IMG/VR virus record: IMGVR_UViG_3300047300_000896
Span: 1-22,659 of that record
Origin: a virus
DNA length: 22,659 nucleotides
Strand: one strand, 5' to 3'
Shown here: positions 2,490 through 16,067 of the stretch, in pieces
How positions within the stretch are numbered: the first letter of the stretch is position 1
Layout of the letters: every line of letters starts with the position of its first letter
Made by a program: the position numbers and the translations under genes
The notes under the pieces: model-generated
The model's input: only the letters and a program-made list of their open reading frames with translations
Database searches by the model: none
Told to the model about the DNA's origin: nothing

Positions 2490-3249
2490 ACCACCCAAGC
2501 AGTACCACAACGAGGAAATCGAAGCCGCCATCTCCAATGCACTCGCCATCGCCAGATCCCGAGAAGACCGCCGCACCTATCTTGGGGCAAGCCGGTGGGG
2601 GCATCACTGTGAGCGGGCACTCGGCTACGAGTTCCACGCCACCGACCGGGACGACATGTCCAGACCTCAGTTCTCCGCAGACTTGTACCGCGTATTCGAC
2701 ATGGGACACGACGGCGAGAGTCGCATGTCCCAGTATCTGCGAATGGCGGGGTTTGAGATGCAGACAGAGAAACCCGGAGGCGGCCAGATAGGATTCTCCG
2801 TCTGCGACGGCAAGCTGGGGGGGCACTGCGACGGGATTATCCACGCCGGCCCCGGGATCACCAAGGCTCCACTGGTGTGGGAAAACAAGGCTCTCAACAA
2901 CAAGAGTTGGAACGACACCAAGACCAAGGGCGTACAGAAGTCCAAGCCGCTGTACTACGCGCAGATGCAGACCTACATTGCATATTTGGGTTTGCAAGGT
3001 TACCTGTTCACAGCCATGAACCGGGACACCGGCGAGATCTTTGTGGAACTGGGGGAGCCGGACATGCGGACGGCCCAAGAGGTCAGCGACAAGGCGCTGC
3101 GGATCGTGCAGAGCCAGCACCCAGAGCAGTTACCCCGCTGCGCCACAGAGGAGACCGATTTCCGGTGCCGCTTCTGTGACTTTGCAAAGCGTTGCTGGAA
3201 CAGGAAAGAAACCATTAGTCAACCGCAGTACTTTACATACAAAAAATGA
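2482..3249 (+). CDS. PD-(D/E)XK exonuclease with Cas4/AddB-like iron-sulphur cysteines
   Basis: This 255-residue protein has the ordered signatures of a RecB/Cas4-type nuclease: a first cysteine (C43, in HHCERALGY), a metal-binding Asp in GHCDGII (D117), ENK (E134, K136), and a QMQTY motif (Q161-Y165) matching the RecB-family QxxxY. Three late cysteines, C229-x2-C232-x5-C238, complete a four-Cys set split around the nuclease domain, as in 4Fe-4S nucleases (AddB, Cas4, Dna2). It probably resects DNA ends during phage replication or recombination. It is not next to any CRISPR array, so a spacer-acquisition role is not suggested. It overlaps the primase-helicase start by four bases, implying coordinated expression. 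Confidence 0.8.
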   Translation: MFEPPKQYHNEEIEAAISNALAIARSREDRRTYLGASRWGHHCERALGYEFHATDRDDMSRPQFSADLYRVFDMGHDGESRMSQYLRMAGFEMQTEKPGGGQIGFSVCDGKLGGHCDGIIHAGPGITKAPLVWENKALNNKSWNDTKTKGVQKSKPLYYAQMQTYIAYLGLQGYLFTAMNRDTGEIFVELGEPDMRTAQEVSDKALRIVQSQHPEQLPRCATEETDFRCRFCDFAKRCWNRKETISQPQYFTYKK

Positions 3250-5711
3250 TGACCGCAAAAATTGAAAGCCTGGCTCACTTCGATGAGAGTCAGGTCAGGG
3301 AACACTTGTCTTTTATCTTTGGAAGCGTGGACTTTCAGCCCGGGGCGTTTGTGTGCCTGAGAGGCATCGGGGAAAAGGGCACAGCGCAGGAGGGAACCTT
3401 CCGGGAAGAGTTCTTTTTTGAACCGGCAGTAAATCAGAACTGGATGAATGCTGCGGTGGAGCACTGCCGCCGCTGGGGACAGCATGCCGTAGCCTCGTTT
3501 ATCGTGCCGTGTGTGCTGAAGGCGCCGAAGGCGACTGCCGTGAATGTGAGTCTATTCACCACGGTGGTGGCGGATTTTGATAGTGGCAACACGGATGAGC
3601 GGATTGCGTGGGTGGTTGAGAACATTGGTGTGCCGGATCTGGTAGTAGAGTCTGGTGGTATTACTGAGGCGGGAACACCCAAGCGTCATGCCTGGTGGCG
3701 GATCGAGCCGACTGCCGACATCGAGGGTGTGATTAACTTACGGCACACAATAGCGGAGCTTTCCGGCGGGGACTTGATGCTCGGGCGGGGAGTGAAGTCC
3801 AATCCGTTTGGCCGGTCGCATCAGCCGGTACGGCTTGCAGGGACCGTCCACGGAAAGGGTGGAACAGCGAAGCCATGCAAGGTGGAGTGGAGCGGGGAAG
3901 TTGGCCCAGACCGCTGTCATGTCATGTTTGCCGACAAACTGAAGTGGTTGCAGCCAGCCCCGTGGGCGGTTCGGACCAAGATGTCCCTTGGGGACGGGGA
4001 CAACGTGATTCGGGGACTGTTCGGCGAGGACACCACCAACGCCGGTGAAAACTTTGAGCCGGTGGATCTGACACGGGATGTCCATGCTGGCGGGGACACG
4101 GTGACGAGGTTCTCCGAGTTCAACCGAGTTGCCGGCCACTACATCCACTGCATCCGCCGTGGGGACATGTCCAAGGACGCCGCGTTCGAGGCTCTGTCTG
4201 GTTGGGTTGTGGCTCACATGAAGCCGGCATGGCCTGAGACAAGAGTAAGGACAGAATGGGAGGCGCTTATTCGGCAAGATGTTGCGTCCAAAGGAGCTTT
4301 TGAGGACACAACGGGGACACGAGGCCAAAAAGAACAGCTCCCGATCCCAGTGTCTGGGGATGAGAACGGACTTCTGGCTTGGAGCGCACACCGCTGGATT
4401 GTAGACCCAGTGCCGCAACACGAGGAACTCGTGGAAGGACTGGTACTCAAGGGAGAGCCCCACTTGTTTGTGGGTGAGGGCGGTTCAGGGAAGACGTTTC
4501 TAGTGGCGGATCTGGCGCTCAAGGTTGCAGCTTGGGGCGAGGGTCGGGATTTCACTTGGTGCGGGCAGAAGATTAAGAGCGGCGGCACTGCGGTGCTGAT
4601 ACTGTGCGAGGACAGCCAGATTGAAATGCATATCCGCATCAAGCAGCTTGATCAAGGAGGGTTGATCTCGCAGGCCGGGGACAGGCTGATCGTACTGCCA
4701 ATGACGAACATTGGAGGCGCCTTTCCGCTCACCGAGCGAGACTTCAAGACCGGCGGGACGGTGACGAGCGACAAGTGGCGCCGGATGCTGGATCTGATGA
4801 AGACGCTGCCGGAGCCGCCGGTATTGGTAGCGATTGATACGCTCAACAGTGTAAGCCACGGGGACGAGAACAGCAATGTCGTCATCGCCGAGATGATGCG
4901 GGAGGCGCACCGCGTCTGCGGGGAATTGGGGGCGGCGCTGCTGATCAACCACCATATCCGCAAGTCCAACGAGCCGCTCAGGAGTCTTGAGGAACTGCGC
5001 AGTGCGATCCGTGGCGCCAGTGCCATCCCGTCGTATTTTCGTATCAACTTTGGAATGTTCCACGCGAGCGATTACGAGCGGCGCATGAAGGCTATGGGGC
5101 TTGTTCCCAAGCGCGGACAGATGTGGAAATTTGGGATTGTGAAGGCGAATATTCATGGTCTGCTTCAGGGAGAACGTACGCTTTTGCGTAACGGGATCGG
5201 ACTCTTGGAGGATTTGACCGAGAGGGACTCGTATGCCGCTGTGAATATCTCTGAGAGGGTAGCGTGGATGGTGTATGCCTGCCAGCAGGCGGCGAGTGCG
5301 CTGCATCCGTATGCCGTGGGTGGGAAGAATGCCGCGAACGGACTCTACAAGAGGCGGAATGAGCTGCCACAGATACTGCGGGGTGTGGGCTGGCGGGAGT
5401 TCGGGAACCTGGTGGAGGAGGCGTTGGTGAAGGGATTGCTTGTGCCGTGTGCTGTGCGAGGGTCGAAGTCGAAGGCGTACCTGGATGTGCCGGGAGGAGT
5501 GCTCTCGAGTGATGAGGCCGGGGTTGTGCTGGCTGCCGGCGCCTACAATCACCCGCCAGAGTGGGAGGATTACTACTACGATGCGGACGCCGGAGAGGTC
5601 GTTTTGGCCGCAAAAAGCAATGCCTGGAAGGCCCAGTTCGGACCCAAAAGCGAGCCGATTGCAGGCAGAAAACAAGTGAATCCTGCCGAGGACATAGGCG
5701 AGGACGCCTGA
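3246..5711 (+). CDS. Primase-helicase: primase-like N-terminus fused to RepA-type AAA ATPase
   Basis: This 821-residue protein has two parts. The N-terminal part looks like an AEP/prim-pol-like primase domain: VVADFDSG (D110, D112), RHAWWRI (H148) and QPVRLAGTVHGK (R196), the usual acidic pair, His and basic motif order. From about residue 395 there is a RepA/DnaB-like (AAA_25) ATPase: Walker A GEGGSGKT near residue 410, Walker B VLVAIDTLNSVS near 525, and an INHHIRKS sensor-like segment near 560. It should unwind DNA and prime synthesis at the phage fork. The start is one of two consecutive ATGs overlapping the nuclease stop. Its last codons already contain GAGGACAT and GAGGACGC, the first members of the downstream repeat array, so this protein, or a domain of it, is the natural candidate to act at that array. 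Confidence 0.8.
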   Translation: MMTAKIESLAHFDESQVREHLSFIFGSVDFQPGAFVCLRGIGEKGTAQEGTFREEFFFEPAVNQNWMNAAVEHCRRWGQHAVASFIVPCVLKAPKATAVNVSLFTTVVADFDSGNTDERIAWVVENIGVPDLVVESGGITEAGTPKRHAWWRIEPTADIEGVINLRHTIAELSGGDLMLGRGVKSNPFGRSHQPVRLAGTVHGKGGTAKPCKVEWSGEVGPDRCHVMFADKLKWLQPAPWAVRTKMSLGDGDNVIRGLFGEDTTNAGENFEPVDLTRDVHAGGDTVTRFSEFNRVAGHYIHCIRRGDMSKDAAFEALSGWVVAHMKPAWPETRVRTEWEALIRQDVASKGAFEDTTGTRGQKEQLPIPVSGDENGLLAWSAHRWIVDPVPQHEELVEGLVLKGEPHLFVGEGGSGKTFLVADLALKVAAWGEGRDFTWCGQKIKSGGTAVLILCEDSQIEMHIRIKQLDQGGLISQAGDRLIVLPMTNIGGAFPLTERDFKTGGTVTSDKWRRMLDLMKTLPEPPVLVAIDTLNSVSHGDENSNVVIAEMMREAHRVCGELGAALLINHHIRKSNEPLRSLEELRSAIRGASAIPSYFRINFGMFHASDYERRMKAMGLVPKRGQMWKFGIVKANIHGLLQGERTLLRNGIGLLEDLTERDSYAAVNISERVAWMVYACQQAASALHPYAVGGKNAANGLYKRRNELPQILRGVGWREFGNLVEEALVKGLLVPCAVRGSKSKAYLDVPGGVLSSDEAGVVLAAGAYNHPPEWEDYYYDADAGEVVLAAKSNAWKAQFGPKSEPIAGRKQVNPAEDIGEDA

Positions 5712-6146
5712 GGACACGAGGGCCGATTTGAGGACGCTCTCTCTGTAAATTGGGGCGTCCTCAAAAAAAGAATGGGTGTCCTCAAGGGGAAAGCAATGTG
5801 GCAAAAATACCATACGCAAAAAGAACGTTAGGACAAATTTAAGGACACGGGGACACGCGGTTCCAACAGAGTAAATAAATAATGTGTGTCCTCGGAGGAC
5901 ACGTCTGAGGACACGCTAAAATACGCAGAAAAAACGTCGTGTCCTTTTTGGTGAAAAAAAGGGGGGGTCGAGGACACGCAAAATTGGTCAGTCAAGTTGT
6001 TGAAAATCAAATTTTTGCAAATTTCGGAACTCGTTTTAGGACACGAGGACTATATAAGGGGGAAAAGGGAATAAATCCCCTTGTTCCCTATATCCTCATA
6101 TATTCGGATACCTTACCGCTTACGCTAGGTATCCGTATGAGGACCG
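5688..6146 (+). other. Probable replication origin: array of GAGGACAC iterons on both strands
   Basis: No gene occupies 5712-6222. I count six exact copies of GAGGACAC: plus strand at 5710, 5895, 5907 and 5970; minus strand (as GTGTCCTC) at 5776 and 5886. Eight further copies have one mismatch (5688, 5700, 5730, 5755 minus, 5841, 5849, 5939 minus, 6037), plus looser ones at 5829, 6045 and 6139. Most exact plus-strand copies continue with G, giving consensus GAGGACACG. Two face each other as a perfect 17-bp palindrome at 5886-5902. Between and after them lie A/T-rich tracts (about 5795-5845, 5925-5960, 5990-6035). Direct and inverted short repeats with AT-rich DNA beside a primase-helicase gene are the hallmarks of an iteron-type origin. 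An operator array for a regulator is the main alternative. Confidence 0.6.
6093..6143. other. Long imperfect hairpin/cruciform at right edge of the origin region
   Basis: TCCTCATA (6093-6100) pairs with TATGAGGA (6136-6143), and CGGATACCT (6105-6113) pairs with AGGTATCCG (6127-6135). That gives 17 base pairs interrupted by a four-base bulge (TATT, 6101-6104) and closed by a 13-base loop. No T-tract follows on either strand, so it is not a typical intrinsic terminator. It could be a single-strand initiation or primase site, a cruciform in the origin, or a structured leader upstream of the resolvase gene. Confidence 0.5.
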
Positions 6147-7680: not shown

Positions 7681-7893
7681 TGGTTTTGGTTTTGGTTTGT
7701 TGTTGTCTGCTGCGTTTTGGGTCCCCTTTTCCCGAGTAAATTCACTTTCGAGAAATGGTTTGACCAAATTTGGTTTTGGGAAATTGCCTTCAGGAGCGGC
7801 AAAGCAGCCGTTGGCTTTAGCGGGTCTCCCGCCCGCATGCAAGGCTCCAGGCCGGGGGCAACACCGCGCCGCAGGCGCACAACCGCCGAAGGC
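7681..7893. other. Non-coding gap between minus-strand genes
   Basis: This 213-bp gap holds the leader of the 7680 gene, the copy A promoter-like repeat and a GC-rich remainder with small hairpins: GCGGG-tct-CCCGC (7820-7832), GCGCC-gca-GGCGC (7866-7878) and CGAAG/CTTCG (7887-7901) around the stop of the next gene. None is followed by a clear T-tract on the minus strand. I see no gene in it. Confidence 0.5.
7716..7794 (-). promoter_or_regulatory. 79-bp promoter-like repeat, copy A
   Basis: This segment aligns without gaps to 8172-8250, about 62 of 79 bases identical by hand count. Read on the minus strand it offers a -35-like TCAAAC (complement of 7758-7763), a 17-bp spacer and a -10-like TTTACT (complement of 7735-7740), then GGGGACCC near the expected transcript start. 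It lies just upstream of the gene starting at 7680. A shared spacer length in both copies supports a promoter, though each hexamer is only a partial match to sigma-70 consensus. Confidence 0.45.
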
Positions 7894-8097
7894 TTACTTC
7901 GCTCGAGTCGCCCGGAAGGTCATGTTGATGACTTCGCCACGCTCCCCGCCGAGTTTCTCCCAGGCTTTCTCCTCAGCGTGCTCACGGTCGTATGCAAACA
8001 CATAGAGCACTTCGGTGTCTGTGTAGATCTCATCAACATAGTGCTGAATGCATTCAACGCGGTACTTCTTAAGGGCTGTGTCTTTTGTGGTGTTCAT
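7894..8097 (-). CDS. Hypothetical small protein (67 aa)
   Basis: The start at 8097 (MNTTKDTALKKYRVEC) follows a long A/C-rich leader. The 67-residue product contains YRVECIQHYVDEIYTD followed by EVLYVFAYDREHAEEKAWEKL, an alternating strand-helix pattern, and ends in a strand and Arg/Lys tail. The 'YxxxxxDxxHAEEKAxE' segment resembles small phage proteins with an alpha/beta fold, but I cannot name the family. The copy B promoter-like repeat lies about 75 bp upstream. Confidence 0.5.
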   Translation of the reverse strand: MNTTKDTALKKYRVECIQHYVDEIYTDTEVLYVFAYDREHAEEKAWEKLGGERGEVINMTFRATRAK

Positions 8098-8171
8098 TGG
8101 TTCTGTTTGGTTAGTTTGGTTCTGTCTGCCCAGGCTGGTCACGCCAGCTCGGGCTACAAAATCATGCCGAC

Positions 8172-8250
8172 TTTGGGTCCCCTTTTTCGGAGTAAAATGA
8201 CTTTTGAGAAATAGTTTCAGCGATTTTGGTTTTGAAGATTTTCCCTTAGG
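8172..8250 (-). promoter_or_regulatory. 79-bp promoter-like repeat, copy B
   Basis: This is the partner of 7716-7794. On the minus strand it reads -35-like TGAAAC (complement of 8214-8219), 17-bp spacer and -10-like TTTACT (complement of 8191-8196), then GGGGACCC. Blocks TTTGGGTCCCCTTTT, GAGTAAA, GAGAAAT and TTTGGTTTTG are identical in both copies as written on the plus strand, while spacer positions vary. This pattern of constrained blocks fits a regulatory element better than decayed coding sequence. Confidence 0.45.
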
Positions 8251-10927: not shown

Positions 10928-12055
10928 ATGTGGATACTACCAAAACAATTACACACCTCGGCCTTTGTGCCGGATATGGCGGCATTGAACTTGGACTCAA
11001 ACGAGTCCTCCCAACTCTGCGCACAGTCGCTCTTTGTGAGATCGAAGCCTTCGCCTGCGCGAACCTGGTTGCAAAAATGGAAGCGGGACTCATGGACGCA
11101 GCACCTATCTGGACGGATCTTAAGACCTTCCCATGGGCAGAGTTTTGTGACCGCGTGGACATCCTCACTGGAGGTTATCCCTGCCAGCCATTCAGCAGCG
11201 CAGGCAAACGTTTCGGAGCAGATGACCCGCGACATCTGTGGCCCTACATCGCAGACGGCATTCGCCTTTTGCGACCCAGAGTCTGCTTCTTTGAGAACGT
11301 CGAGGGACACATTAGCCTTGGACTCCGAGAAGTCATTGCAGACTTGGAAAGCCTTGGTTACCAAGCGACGTGGGGAATATTCAGCGCGTCGGAATGCCTC
11401 GATGCAAGTGGACGCACAGCACCGCACCAGCGTAAACGAGTGTTCATCTTGGCCCACCGTGACAGCGAACGAGGACAGCTATCGGATTGGCGGCAACAGT
11501 CAACAGAGCAAATGCCTATCGGCAATGGCACGGCGTGGAGAGATGTTTGGCCCAGCCGCCCCGGCGAACCCCAGCACGCATGGGAGCCGCCCAGAGTTGT
11601 TGTGGCCGACACATACAAACACGGGAACGGGACGAGTCTCGGACGGGAAGCGCGGCAGGGATCTGGAGAGCTGCATAACGAATCCACAAGCGTGGAGCCG
11701 CCCAGAGTCGTGGAGCACTCCAACGGTGACAGACGCAAGTGCAATGTCGCCGGAGATGCGGCCCAGCAGGATAGCAACAGGCAGGACAACGGAGTATCTG
11801 GCGAGGCAAATTCAATGGGCGACGCCCAGAACGAAAGATGCAGAAGGCTGGATGATGAATCAAGCGAGACTAGCGGCTGGCAAGCCAGAGGACACGCTGA
11901 CAGGGCAAGCACTTCAGAGCAACAAGGACAATGGCAAACTCAACCCTCGATGGGTCGAGACATTAATGGGCCTGCCAGTGGGCTGGACTATGCCGAGTTG
12001 TGCGTCTCCTGTGACAATCGAACTGACGAGTTGCGGCTGCTCGGCAACGGAGTAG
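10928..12055 (+). CDS. Candidate overprinted gene: 375-aa +1 frame inside dcm, methylase-associated phage protein
   Basis: The frame opens at ATG 10928, one codon position from the dcm GTG, and stays open for 375 codons on the same strand. Its product has repeated W-x-T/P motifs (WPTVTANED at 175, LLWPT at 225, WSTPTVTDA at 262, WATPRTKDA at 297) and ends with LNPRWVETLMGLPVGWT (338-354). I recall this pattern from many phage proteins annotated as methylase-associated, where it occurs as a coding frame in its own right. The N-terminal half matches the same family (RDICGPTSQ, SLRTSRDTLALDSEKSLQTW). No other plus-strand shadow frame in the window approaches this length. Whether it is translated is unproven; the alternative is that dcm composition alone keeps the frame open. 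The function is unknown. Confidence 0.45.
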   Translation: MWILPKQLHTSAFVPDMAALNLDSNESSQLCAQSLFVRSKPSPARTWLQKWKRDSWTQHLSGRILRPSHGQSFVTAWTSSLEVIPASHSAAQANVSEQMTRDICGPTSQTAFAFCDPESASLRTSRDTLALDSEKSLQTWKALVTKRRGEYSARRNASMQVDAQHRTSVNECSSWPTVTANEDSYRIGGNSQQSKCLSAMARRGEMFGPAAPANPSTHGSRPELLWPTHTNTGTGRVSDGKRGRDLESCITNPQAWSRPESWSTPTVTDASAMSPEMRPSRIATGRTTEYLARQIQWATPRTKDAEGWMMNQARLAAGKPEDTLTGQALQSNKDNGKLNPRWVETLMGLPVGWTMPSCASPVTIELTSCGCSATE

Positions 12056-12105
12056 TACCGGCAACGGCAGAGCGAGCCTTCAGAACACTCTTAGCACAAA
12101 TATGA
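10930..12105 (+). CDS. dcm: DNA (cytosine-5) methyltransferase
   Basis: The 391-residue product carries the C5-methyltransferase motifs in order: I, LGLCAGYGGIELGL (residues 10-23); IV, GGYPCQPFS with catalytic C85; VI, ENV (122-124); VIII, QRKRVFI (167-173); and X, LLGNGVVPATAERAF near 370-385. The region between VIII and X (about 180-360), where target recognition normally lies, is polar and low in hydrophobics. It ends in NGPASGLDYAELCVSCDNRTDELR, which I recall from intact phage Dcm proteins, so no frameshift is needed. The start is a GTG that overlaps an ATG of the +1 frame (ATGTG). It probably methylates phage DNA against host restriction. Unusually, most of the gene also encodes a second long frame (10928-12055). 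Confidence 0.85.
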   Translation: MDTTKTITHLGLCAGYGGIELGLKRVLPTLRTVALCEIEAFACANLVAKMEAGLMDAAPIWTDLKTFPWAEFCDRVDILTGGYPCQPFSSAGKRFGADDPRHLWPYIADGIRLLRPRVCFFENVEGHISLGLREVIADLESLGYQATWGIFSASECLDASGRTAPHQRKRVFILAHRDSERGQLSDWRQQSTEQMPIGNGTAWRDVWPSRPGEPQHAWEPPRVVVADTYKHGNGTSLGREARQGSGELHNESTSVEPPRVVEHSNGDRRKCNVAGDAAQQDSNRQDNGVSGEANSMGDAQNERCRRLDDESSETSGWQARGHADRASTSEQQGQWQTQPSMGRDINGPASGLDYAELCVSCDNRTDELRLLGNGVVPATAERAFRTLLAQI

Positions 12106-14055: not shown

Positions 14056-16067
14056 ACGAAGAGAAATTAGCAGAAATCCATCAGGCTGCGCGTGCTGAGT
14101 TCGACCAGGTTCAATCGGCCCTGTATCAGGAGCGGATGAACTGTCTTGGGGACCGGCGTTTTTGTTCGCTTACCGGCGCACAATGGGAGGGACCGCTTGG
14201 GAACCAGTTCGAGAACAAGCCCCGCTTTGAGGTCAACAAGGTGCACATGGCGGTGCAACGGATCATCAACGAGTACCGCAACAACCGTATCGGGGTACAG
14301 TTCGTGTCCAAAGAGGGCGAGGAGTACGACAAGCTGGCGGAGACGTGCCAGAACCTGTATCGGGCGGATGAACAGACGCCTACGGCGGATGAGGCCTATG
14401 ACAATGCCTTTGAGGAAGCGGTGATGGGAGGGTTTGGAGCATGGCGGCTGCGGACGGAGTACGTCAACGACGAAGACCCCGAGGACGAGAAGCAGCGGGT
14501 GTGTATCGAGCCGATTTTTGATGCGGATAGCAGCGTGTACTTTGATCTCGGCGCAAAGCGCCAGGACAAGTCTGATGCGAAGCGTTGCTGGGTCTTAACC
14601 AGCATGACCCGCGAAGCCTACCGTGCGGAGTGGAACGACGATCCCTCGACTTGGCCTAAGACAATCACGCGCAGCCAGTTCGACTGGTATACTCCAAGTA
14701 TTGTCTACGTCGCGGAGTACTATGTCGTGGAGGAAGTCTCCGAGCAGATCCGCATCTACAAGAGCCTCACCGGCGAGGAGGAAAGCCTGCGGCCTGATGA
14801 ACTCTATAAGGAAGAAGAGATGCTGGCGACCGGCTGGAAGGAGACACGCCGCAAGAAGGTCAAAGCCCGCAAGGTGCGCAAGTACATCATGTCGGGGGCG
14901 GCGATCCTTGAGGATTGCGGCTATATTGCGGGCAAGAACATCCCGATCATACCGGTGTACGGGAAGCGTTGGTTTGTGGACAACGTAGAGCGTTGCATGG
15001 GGCATGTGCGGCTTGCCAAAGACGCGCAGCGGCTTAAGAACATGCAGCTTAGTAAACTCGGCGAGATTGCGGCCCTGAGTGCCACGGAGAAGCCGATTCT
15101 TTTGCCCGAACAAGTCGCCGGCCACCAGCTCATGTGGGCCGAGGACAACCTCAAGAACTACCCCTACCTGCTCATTAATCCTATCACGGATGCCAACGGC
15201 AACCCCGCCCCGGGCGGGCCTGTGGCGTACACGAAACCTCCGTCGATTCCGCCTTCGATGGCGGCACTGCTTCAACTCACCGAGGCCGACATGCAGGAGA
15301 TTCTCGGCTCCCCGCAGCAGGGCGACAAGATGGTCTCTCACCTTAGTGGCAAGACCGTGGAACTCATTCAGCAACGGCTGGATATGCAGACCTTCATCTA
15401 CATGAGCAACATGGCCAAGGCTGTGAAGCGGTGTGGAGAAGTGTGGCTCTCTATTGCACGGGATATTTTTGTGGAGCAAGGCCGGAAGATGAAGTCGATT
15501 GCGGCAAGCGGCAAGGCGGAGCCTGTGGAGTTGATGAAACCGGTTGTCAACGACGAGGGTGAGATCGAGTATGAGAACGACATGTCCTGTGCGGACTACG
15601 ATGTCGAGGTTACGGTCGGCCCAAGCAGCCAGACCAAACGGCAGGCCACGGTGCGGAGCCTCACGGACATGATGACGCTGACCCAAGACCCTGAGATGAC
15701 CCAGGTGCTGTCCTCGATGGCGATGCTCAACATGGACGGCGAAGGCATTAGTGACGTGCGCGACTATTTCCGCAAGAAGCTGCTTCGCATGGGGGTTCTC
15801 AAGCCCACCGACACCGAGGCCCAGGAACTCGCCATCGAGGCCCAGAACGCCCAGCCAGACCCGCAGGCGCAGTACCTCAGGGCGGCAAGCGAACAGGCCA
15901 TTGCACAGGCCTCCAAAGCGCAGGCTGACAGTATTCTCGCGGTGGCCAAGGCCGAGGAGGCCCGGGCCAAGACGACAGAGACCCTTTCCAAGGTCAGCTC
16001 AACAGATCAAGAACGGATCTTTGCGCTGGCTGACCGGCTTACCCAGCCGGCGCCCCAGATGCAATAA
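14052..16067 (+). CDS. P22-like portal protein
   Basis: The 671-residue product is close to P22 gp1 (725 residues) in length and pattern. It has an N-terminal helical region (EEKLAEIHQAARAEFDQVQ), FEVNKVHMAVQRIINEYRNNR, FGAWRLRTEY, a core with PIIPVYGKRWFVDN and GHVRLAKDAQRLKN, and a C-terminal helix-rich stretch of Ala/Glu/Lys (about 600-665) that matches the barrel region of P22 portals. Twelve copies form the ring through which DNA passes and on which terminase docks. Start overlaps the terminase stop, and the scaffold gene follows after 27 bp. Confidence 0.92.
   Translation: MNEEKLAEIHQAARAEFDQVQSALYQERMNCLGDRRFCSLTGAQWEGPLGNQFENKPRFEVNKVHMAVQRIINEYRNNRIGVQFVSKEGEEYDKLAETCQNLYRADEQTPTADEAYDNAFEEAVMGGFGAWRLRTEYVNDEDPEDEKQRVCIEPIFDADSSVYFDLGAKRQDKSDAKRCWVLTSMTREAYRAEWNDDPSTWPKTITRSQFDWYTPSIVYVAEYYVVEEVSEQIRIYKSLTGEEESLRPDELYKEEEMLATGWKETRRKKVKARKVRKYIMSGAAILEDCGYIAGKNIPIIPVYGKRWFVDNVERCMGHVRLAKDAQRLKNMQLSKLGEIAALSATEKPILLPEQVAGHQLMWAEDNLKNYPYLLINPITDANGNPAPGGPVAYTKPPSIPPSMAALLQLTEADMQEILGSPQQGDKMVSHLSGKTVELIQQRLDMQTFIYMSNMAKAVKRCGEVWLSIARDIFVEQGRKMKSIAASGKAEPVELMKPVVNDEGEIEYENDMSCADYDVEVTVGPSSQTKRQATVRSLTDMMTLTQDPEMTQVLSSMAMLNMDGEGISDVRDYFRKKLLRMGVLKPTDTEAQELAIEAQNAQPDPQAQYLRAASEQAIAQASKAQADSILAVAKAEEARAKTTETLSKVSSTDQERIFALADRLTQPAPQMQ

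Follow-up and report, generated by a model that had tools for sequence, protein, structure and literature searches.

A tailed-phage contig of 22,659 bases, referred to here in its entirety as the window, carries two long open reading frames on the plus strand that share 1126 nt. Their overlap is genuine and conserved, and selection acts on both of them. One, frame A, is a C5-cytosine DNA methyltransferase gene as judged by its motifs and profile matches, and the other, frame B, is read in the +1 frame of A (Table 1). We give a probability of about 0.88 to the reading that A and B encode the alpha and beta subunits of one split C5-cytosine methyltransferase of the M.EcoHK31I type, specified by two interleaved same-strand genes. 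This reading was drawn from sequence comparison, and it rests on the partition of the conserved motifs between the frames, the switching of selection from frame to frame along the gene, the conserved paired start codons, and the shuffling of recognition cassettes. Both frames, with the same ends, lengths, and interleaved starts, had been called in the initial annotation of this DNA, which proposed that joint selection had shaped the recognition region of the methyltransferase and the second protein, so that a single segment possibly encodes both a modification enzyme and its partner. Our results support that proposal: none of the observations that its authors had named as counting against it (stop codons in the second frame of homologues, a lack of synonymous constraint, and matches to unexpressed frames only) was made. 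The partner is best read not as an accessory protein but as the putative chain that carries the recognition cassettes and the motif IX missing from A.

The surrounding genes are those of a tailed phage and include a Cas4-like exonuclease, a primase/helicase, RusA, terminase, portal, scaffold, major head protein, and tail genes. Within the window locus, frame B contains no stop in 375 codons, compared with 5.2 expected when the synonymous codons of A are shuffled, so its openness exceeds chance; by the same shuffle, the 19 stops of the third frame match expectation. The initial claim that same-strand shadow frames elsewhere reach at most about 130 codons outside the tail-end regions needs correction, as such frames reach 165 aa (TTG 7717-8214) and, inside the tail gene, 180 open codons. 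Among the eight large window genes compared, none apart from this locus contains a same-strand alternative frame of more than 180 open codons. Antisense open reading frames of 439 and 363 aa lie opposite the primase/helicase and portal genes (minus strand, 4500-5819 and 14595-15686) and are probably ordinary antisense shadows.

Frame A contains motifs I, IV (PCQ), VI (ENV), VIII (QRKR), and X (GNGVVPATA), in agreement with the motifs first reported for it (PCQ with C85, ENV, QRKR, and GNGVVPA), and matches Pfam PF00145 (1.8e-30) and phrog_363 (6e-55). In a structural model, residues 1 to 191 are confident and match the fold of M.HaeIII and M.HhaI (E value, 6e-12), and a C-terminal helix (residues 377 to 390) is modeled with high confidence. 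Frame A thus has the catalytic motifs and the fold of a PF00145 C5-methyltransferase; motif IX and the recognition domain that such enzymes carry between motifs VIII and IX are absent from its chain. The model has pLDDT values mostly below 50 over residues 192 to 371, approximately, as expected of a chain that lacks these two elements. The variable region of A does retain one conserved element, WPSRPGEPQHAWEPPRVV, which is also present in phages C75C1 and Shelly. The N-terminal pattern of the family, which had been ascribed to the second frame, is found in frame A and not in frame B.

Frame B matches phrog_1008, labeled "DNA methyltransferase" (5e-17 overall, with B residues 74 to 183 on profile positions 35 to 143), and phrog_26627 (3e-6). 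All B-type frames tested matched phrog_1008, and that of locus L002 aligns to positions 35 to 279 of its 329; this is a family of predicted proteins with no characterized enzyme. No Pfam or NCBIfam model matched the B frames, and a PDB profile search with B returned no match. Modeled alone, B reaches a mean pLDDT of 53 and is confident only for a helix at residues 134 to 167. The WPT/STPT/ATP repeats and the block LNPRWVETLMGLPVGWT described earlier for this frame are indeed present. Toward its C terminus B carries motif IX (KLNPRWVETLMGLPVGW). A profile of B matches the methyltransferase of locus L265 at this motif, given by the B sequence KLNPRWVETLMGLPVGWT (8.9e-9); the L265 enzyme is a monomer, with motif IX in frame with all other motifs, and its C-terminal part aligns weakly to M.HhaI residues 270 to 318, which span motifs IX and X.

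Table 1. Features of the overlapping methyltransferase locus (positions in the window)
Feature	Position	Strand	Basis
Interleaved start codons ATGTG	10928..10932	+	ATG for B, GTG for A
Frame B, putative beta subunit, 375 aa, ATG start	10928..12055	+	Open in 86/86 homologues; phrog_1008, phrog_26627
Frame A, putative alpha subunit of C5-cytosine DNA methyltransferase, 391 aa, GTG start	10930..12105	+	PF00145, phrog_363
Catalytic half, A-dominated	10930..11469	+	Codon-position and synonymous-site patterns
Motif IV GGYPCQPFS with catalytic Cys85, frame A	11170..11196	+	Invariant in 40 homologues
Variable region, B array of W-[PAS]-T-[PVH] cassettes	11450..11935	+	Cassette clusters, shuffled order
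Cassette starts in B	11450, 11603, 11711, 11816	+	W-[PAS]-T-[PVH] pattern
Conserved A-frame element WPSRPGEPQHAWEPPRVV within variable region	11548..11601	+	Near-invariant among A homologues
Motif IX KLNPRWVETLMGLPVGWTM, frame B	11936..11992	+	Codon-position pattern; B-profile match to L265
Motif X LRLLGNGVVPATAERAF, frame A	12031..12081	+	Sequence motif; modeled helix 377-390
A-only tail past B stop	12056..12105	+	Internal control: synonymous constraint gone

We scanned IMG/VR with A and with B, which gave 143 loci, and used 86 nonredundant full-length homologues. Frame B is open across the entire overlap in every one of them, with no stop before the C-terminal end of B; the first B stop falls near or beyond the end of A, except in L125, where an insertion lengthens A. 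When the synonymous codons of A were shuffled, a mean of 5.5 B stops per homologue was expected (minimum, 3.2), and when those of B were shuffled, a mean of 12.1 A stops; none was observed in either case. The third frame, which contains about 9 to 29 stops in the homologues, showed 17.2 stops against 17.2 expected. The starts are likewise conserved as a pair: ATGTG in 49 homologues, two ATG codons 5 nt apart in 32 and 8 nt apart in 4, and TTG/GTG in 1, with typical sequences ATGTGG or, for two ATG codons 5 nt apart, ATGACATGG. A Shine-Dalgarno-like sequence precedes the starts in somewhat less than half of the homologues; none precedes those of the window.

Selection was compared along the overlap in 600 divergent pairs (mean A identity, 57%) against a null of A-synonymous changes. 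Across most of A residues 1 to 375, the B frames were more similar than this null predicts, the excess reaching +4.3 BLOSUM units per residue, although it was weak or absent in some stretches of the variable region, which aligns poorly. Just past the B stop, at A residues 376 to 390, the excess was -0.11 in B, compared with +0.01 in the third frame. Differences at 4-fold sites showed the same boundary, at 0.24 for A residues 1 to 75, 0.44 for residues 76 to 180, and 0.68, near saturation, past the B stop. Synonymous constraint, for which the initial annotation had proposed a test, is therefore strong in the overlap and ends where B ends. Position 3 of the A codons is most variable at residues 76 to 180, and residues 1 to 75 are constrained in both frames. 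In the motif IX stretch, identity is 46% for A and 74% for B, and the 4-fold sites of A are almost unchanged, with differences in 1.8% of comparisons (0.018). Together, the codon-position and constraint patterns indicate that the more strongly selected protein switches along the gene: selection is stronger on A at the catalytic motifs, on B at the recognition region and motif IX, and on A again at motif X. Observed changes were also significantly conservative for B in the recognition region (131 transversions better versus 82 worse) and at motif IX (10 versus 1). In B residues 1 to 180 the changes were not significantly conservative for B; since this half is nevertheless constrained, an RNA- or DNA-level cause is possible there.

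The variable region evolves as a set of modules. Each B protein contains 1 to 7 W-[PAS]-T-P cassettes, and an identical cassette can occupy differing positions in different phages. In 462 ungapped pairs of homologous cassettes, the first, second, and third positions of B codons differed at frequencies of 0.149, 0.118, and 0.397; identity within homologous cassettes was 83% in B and 54% in A, and stops occurred in 11 of 576 cassettes in the A frame and in 491 of 576 in the third frame. These values indicate that the cassettes evolve as B protein and that A merely stays open through them. Because they lie between motif VIII and motif IX, the usual site of target-recognition domains (TRDs), the B cassettes are probably such domains. 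The proposed split methyltransferase may well be multispecific.

M.EcoHK31I and M.EaeI are C5-methyltransferases composed of alpha and beta chains; M.EcoHK31I recognizes YGGCCR and needs both chains for methylation, and its beta chain is reportedly encoded within the alpha gene but in a different frame, as described by Lee, Kam, and Shaw in 1995. Phages of the SPbeta group encode multispecific C5-methyltransferases as single chains with several TRD-like modules in a row; the window pair likewise has several modules in a row but places them in a separate frame and, we infer, a separate chain. The larger polypeptide of M.EcoHK31I holds motifs I to VIII and X, and the smaller holds motif IX (PMC3404938). 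The window pair shares this partition, with motifs I to VIII and X in A and motif IX in B, and its putative second chain is likewise encoded in a different frame of the gene for the first, here over 1126 nt. Unlike M.EcoHK31I, B starts 2 nt before A and spans nearly all of it (375 versus 391 codons), and the shuffled cassettes lie in B, the smaller-type frame, whereas the predicted TRD of M.EcoHK31I was placed in the larger subunit (PMC3404938). M.AquI is split as well, one of its two chains holding motifs I to VIII and the other motif IX together with what remains of the variable region (PMC3404938). The window pair resembles it in this division; motif X, unlike in M.AquI, belongs to the large chain A, so that the small chain does not combine IX with X.

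As a split enzyme, A would supply AdoMet binding, catalysis (motifs I to VIII), and motif X, and B would supply exchangeable W-[PAS]-T-P recognition cassettes and motif IX. Initiation at the ATG of B or at the overlapping GTG or ATG of A would yield both chains from one start region, and these would assemble into one enzyme, presumably a heterodimer. The assembled enzyme may methylate the phage genome at one or, if multispecific, several sites, most likely as protection against host restriction. A plausible origin is a single-frame enzyme in which two compensating frame changes arose around the segment from the recognition region to motif IX, after which each chain would have kept its ancestral half and gained an overprinted half.

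The same motifs could be united in a single chain if ribosomes that start in A moved into B by programmed frameshifting to read the recognition region and motif IX, then returned to A to read motif X. Motifs I to VIII and X of A joined with the recognition region and motif IX of B would make a canonical monomer, the L265 monomer exists, and the rearranged locus L143 has its catalytic half in frame with its recognition half. Two shifts would be required, however, and a fusion would have no need for B to be open, and A constrained at synonymous sites, upstream of any shift point as far as the conserved ATG, or for A to remain free of stops across the recognition region, as it does in every one of the 86 homologues; we consider this route improbable. 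Somewhat less probable again is that B is no subunit but an independent protein, such as a regulator or inhibitor of the methyltransferase. In favor of this, B alone folds poorly in the model, and its constrained N-terminal half has no known homologue outside the group; yet B carries two things that a C5-methyltransferase requires and that A lacks, motif IX and variable cassettes, and the partition equals that of the naturally split M.EcoHK31I (PMC3404938). Codon bias together with conservation of A might instead have held open an unexpressed shadow frame, given that long shadows favor the +1 frame and that the catalytic half of A is highly conserved. We reject this reading on stop counts (3 to 6 per gene predicted by the shuffles, none in 86 homologues), on synonymous constraint that stops at the B stop, on identities at motif IX, where B is more conserved than A, and on the evolution of the cassettes as B codons. 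Sequencing or assembly errors that broke a single-frame gene can be dismissed too: three loci (L137, L142, and L143) appear rearranged or broken, but the identical layout recurs in 86 independent assemblies, in N15, in Shelly, and in bacterial contigs, and two compensating errors at matching sites everywhere are not credible.

The two-frame layout is common in phages, but as a rule just one of its two proteins carries an annotation. For an IMG/VR census by DNA-pattern search (WVEWLMG), which matched at least 120 stretches, loci were classified by an upstream PCQ motif. Of the 91 classifiable loci among the matches listed, 90 have motif IX at +1 relative to the catalytic frame and 1 has it in that same frame, a result that is not fully neutral because the pattern was written from the B peptide. 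Across the segment from PCQ to motif IX, to which the shuffle was fixed, the 90 listed loci contain no B stop, compared with about 269 expected in total. Nested B-type frames lie under annotated methyltransferases in phages N15 (gp58), SEN5, PHB09, BS-TP4, ABMM1, PhiXhv-18, C75C1, and Yong-M2-251. The initial annotation had raised the possibility that B would match only unexpressed shadows, but B-type frames are themselves annotated in four phages. In Pseudomonas phage PMG1 (L151, 1420-2181) the annotated "DNA methyltransferase" is the beta frame and the catalytic alpha frame is unannotated; in Synechococcus phage Ssp-JY39, B is the annotated hypothetical protein XAI96804; Paenibacillus phage Shelly has annotations for both frames, with B entered as "g55 internal gene"; and both are annotated in PhiXhv-18. 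The phages with a nested beta frame (N15 gp58, SHELLY_55/56, and others) carry motif IX and W-T-P cassettes in the +1 frame, as in the window. The annotated beta gene of Shelly begins within alpha, unlike that of the window; the B frames of C75C1 and of the Synechococcus phages extend over almost the whole of alpha, as it does here.

The bacterial relatives of the window pair lie on contigs of Verrucomicrobia-type assemblies; the overlapping pair is present in Pedosphaera, Geminisphaera colitermitum TAV2, a Verrucomicrobia MAG, and a Spartobacteria MAG (L281-L284), which weakly suggests a verrucomicrobial host for the window phage.

Several loci depart from the common layout. In L143 and L144 (about 3000-4200), the catalytic half, cassettes, and motif IX share one frame and motif X lies in another, and in L137 (about 3000-4200) the N-terminal half of B continues in frame into the C-terminal half of A; these rearrangements could be natural frame swaps or sequencing errors. 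L127 and L125 (about 3000-4500) have an altered motif IX (LNPRWVCVLMNL) and, judged by eye, an HNH- or zinc-finger-like insertion between motifs IX and X. Stops interrupt A in L185, L196, L197, and L236, where the B-type frame is still open, and in the first three of these, motif IX and a motif X-like GN share one frame, nearer to M.AquI.

It appears reasonably likely that many phage C5-methyltransferases annotated as single proteins are alpha/beta pairs whose +1 frame carries recombining cassettes and motif IX, and that in the clade of the window beta was overprinted back to the alpha start, gaining a constrained N-terminal domain. If so, one of the two frames would evolve for recognition and the other for catalysis. 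Enzymes of the M.EcoHK31I kind are already known; the novelty here lies in interleaved starts that make the overlap near-total and, as the comparisons suggest, in a second frame that carries shuffled recognition cassettes and in how common this layout is among phages. Literature searches for phage methyltransferase genes that overlap or are nested turned up no account of such breadth.

With 1.1 kb of overlap, 86 homologues, and an internal control, the locus is among the clearest sequence-testable long same-strand overlaps in tailed phages, one in which two enzyme halves are selected in alternate frames of one DNA. The recognition domains of many phage cytosine methyltransferases may have to be looked for in the frame that gene callers discard, and specificity prediction and cloning from the annotated open reading frame alone would then fail. 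The shuffled cassettes, in turn, would provide a naturally occurring collection from which to learn how methylation specificity is determined by short modules.
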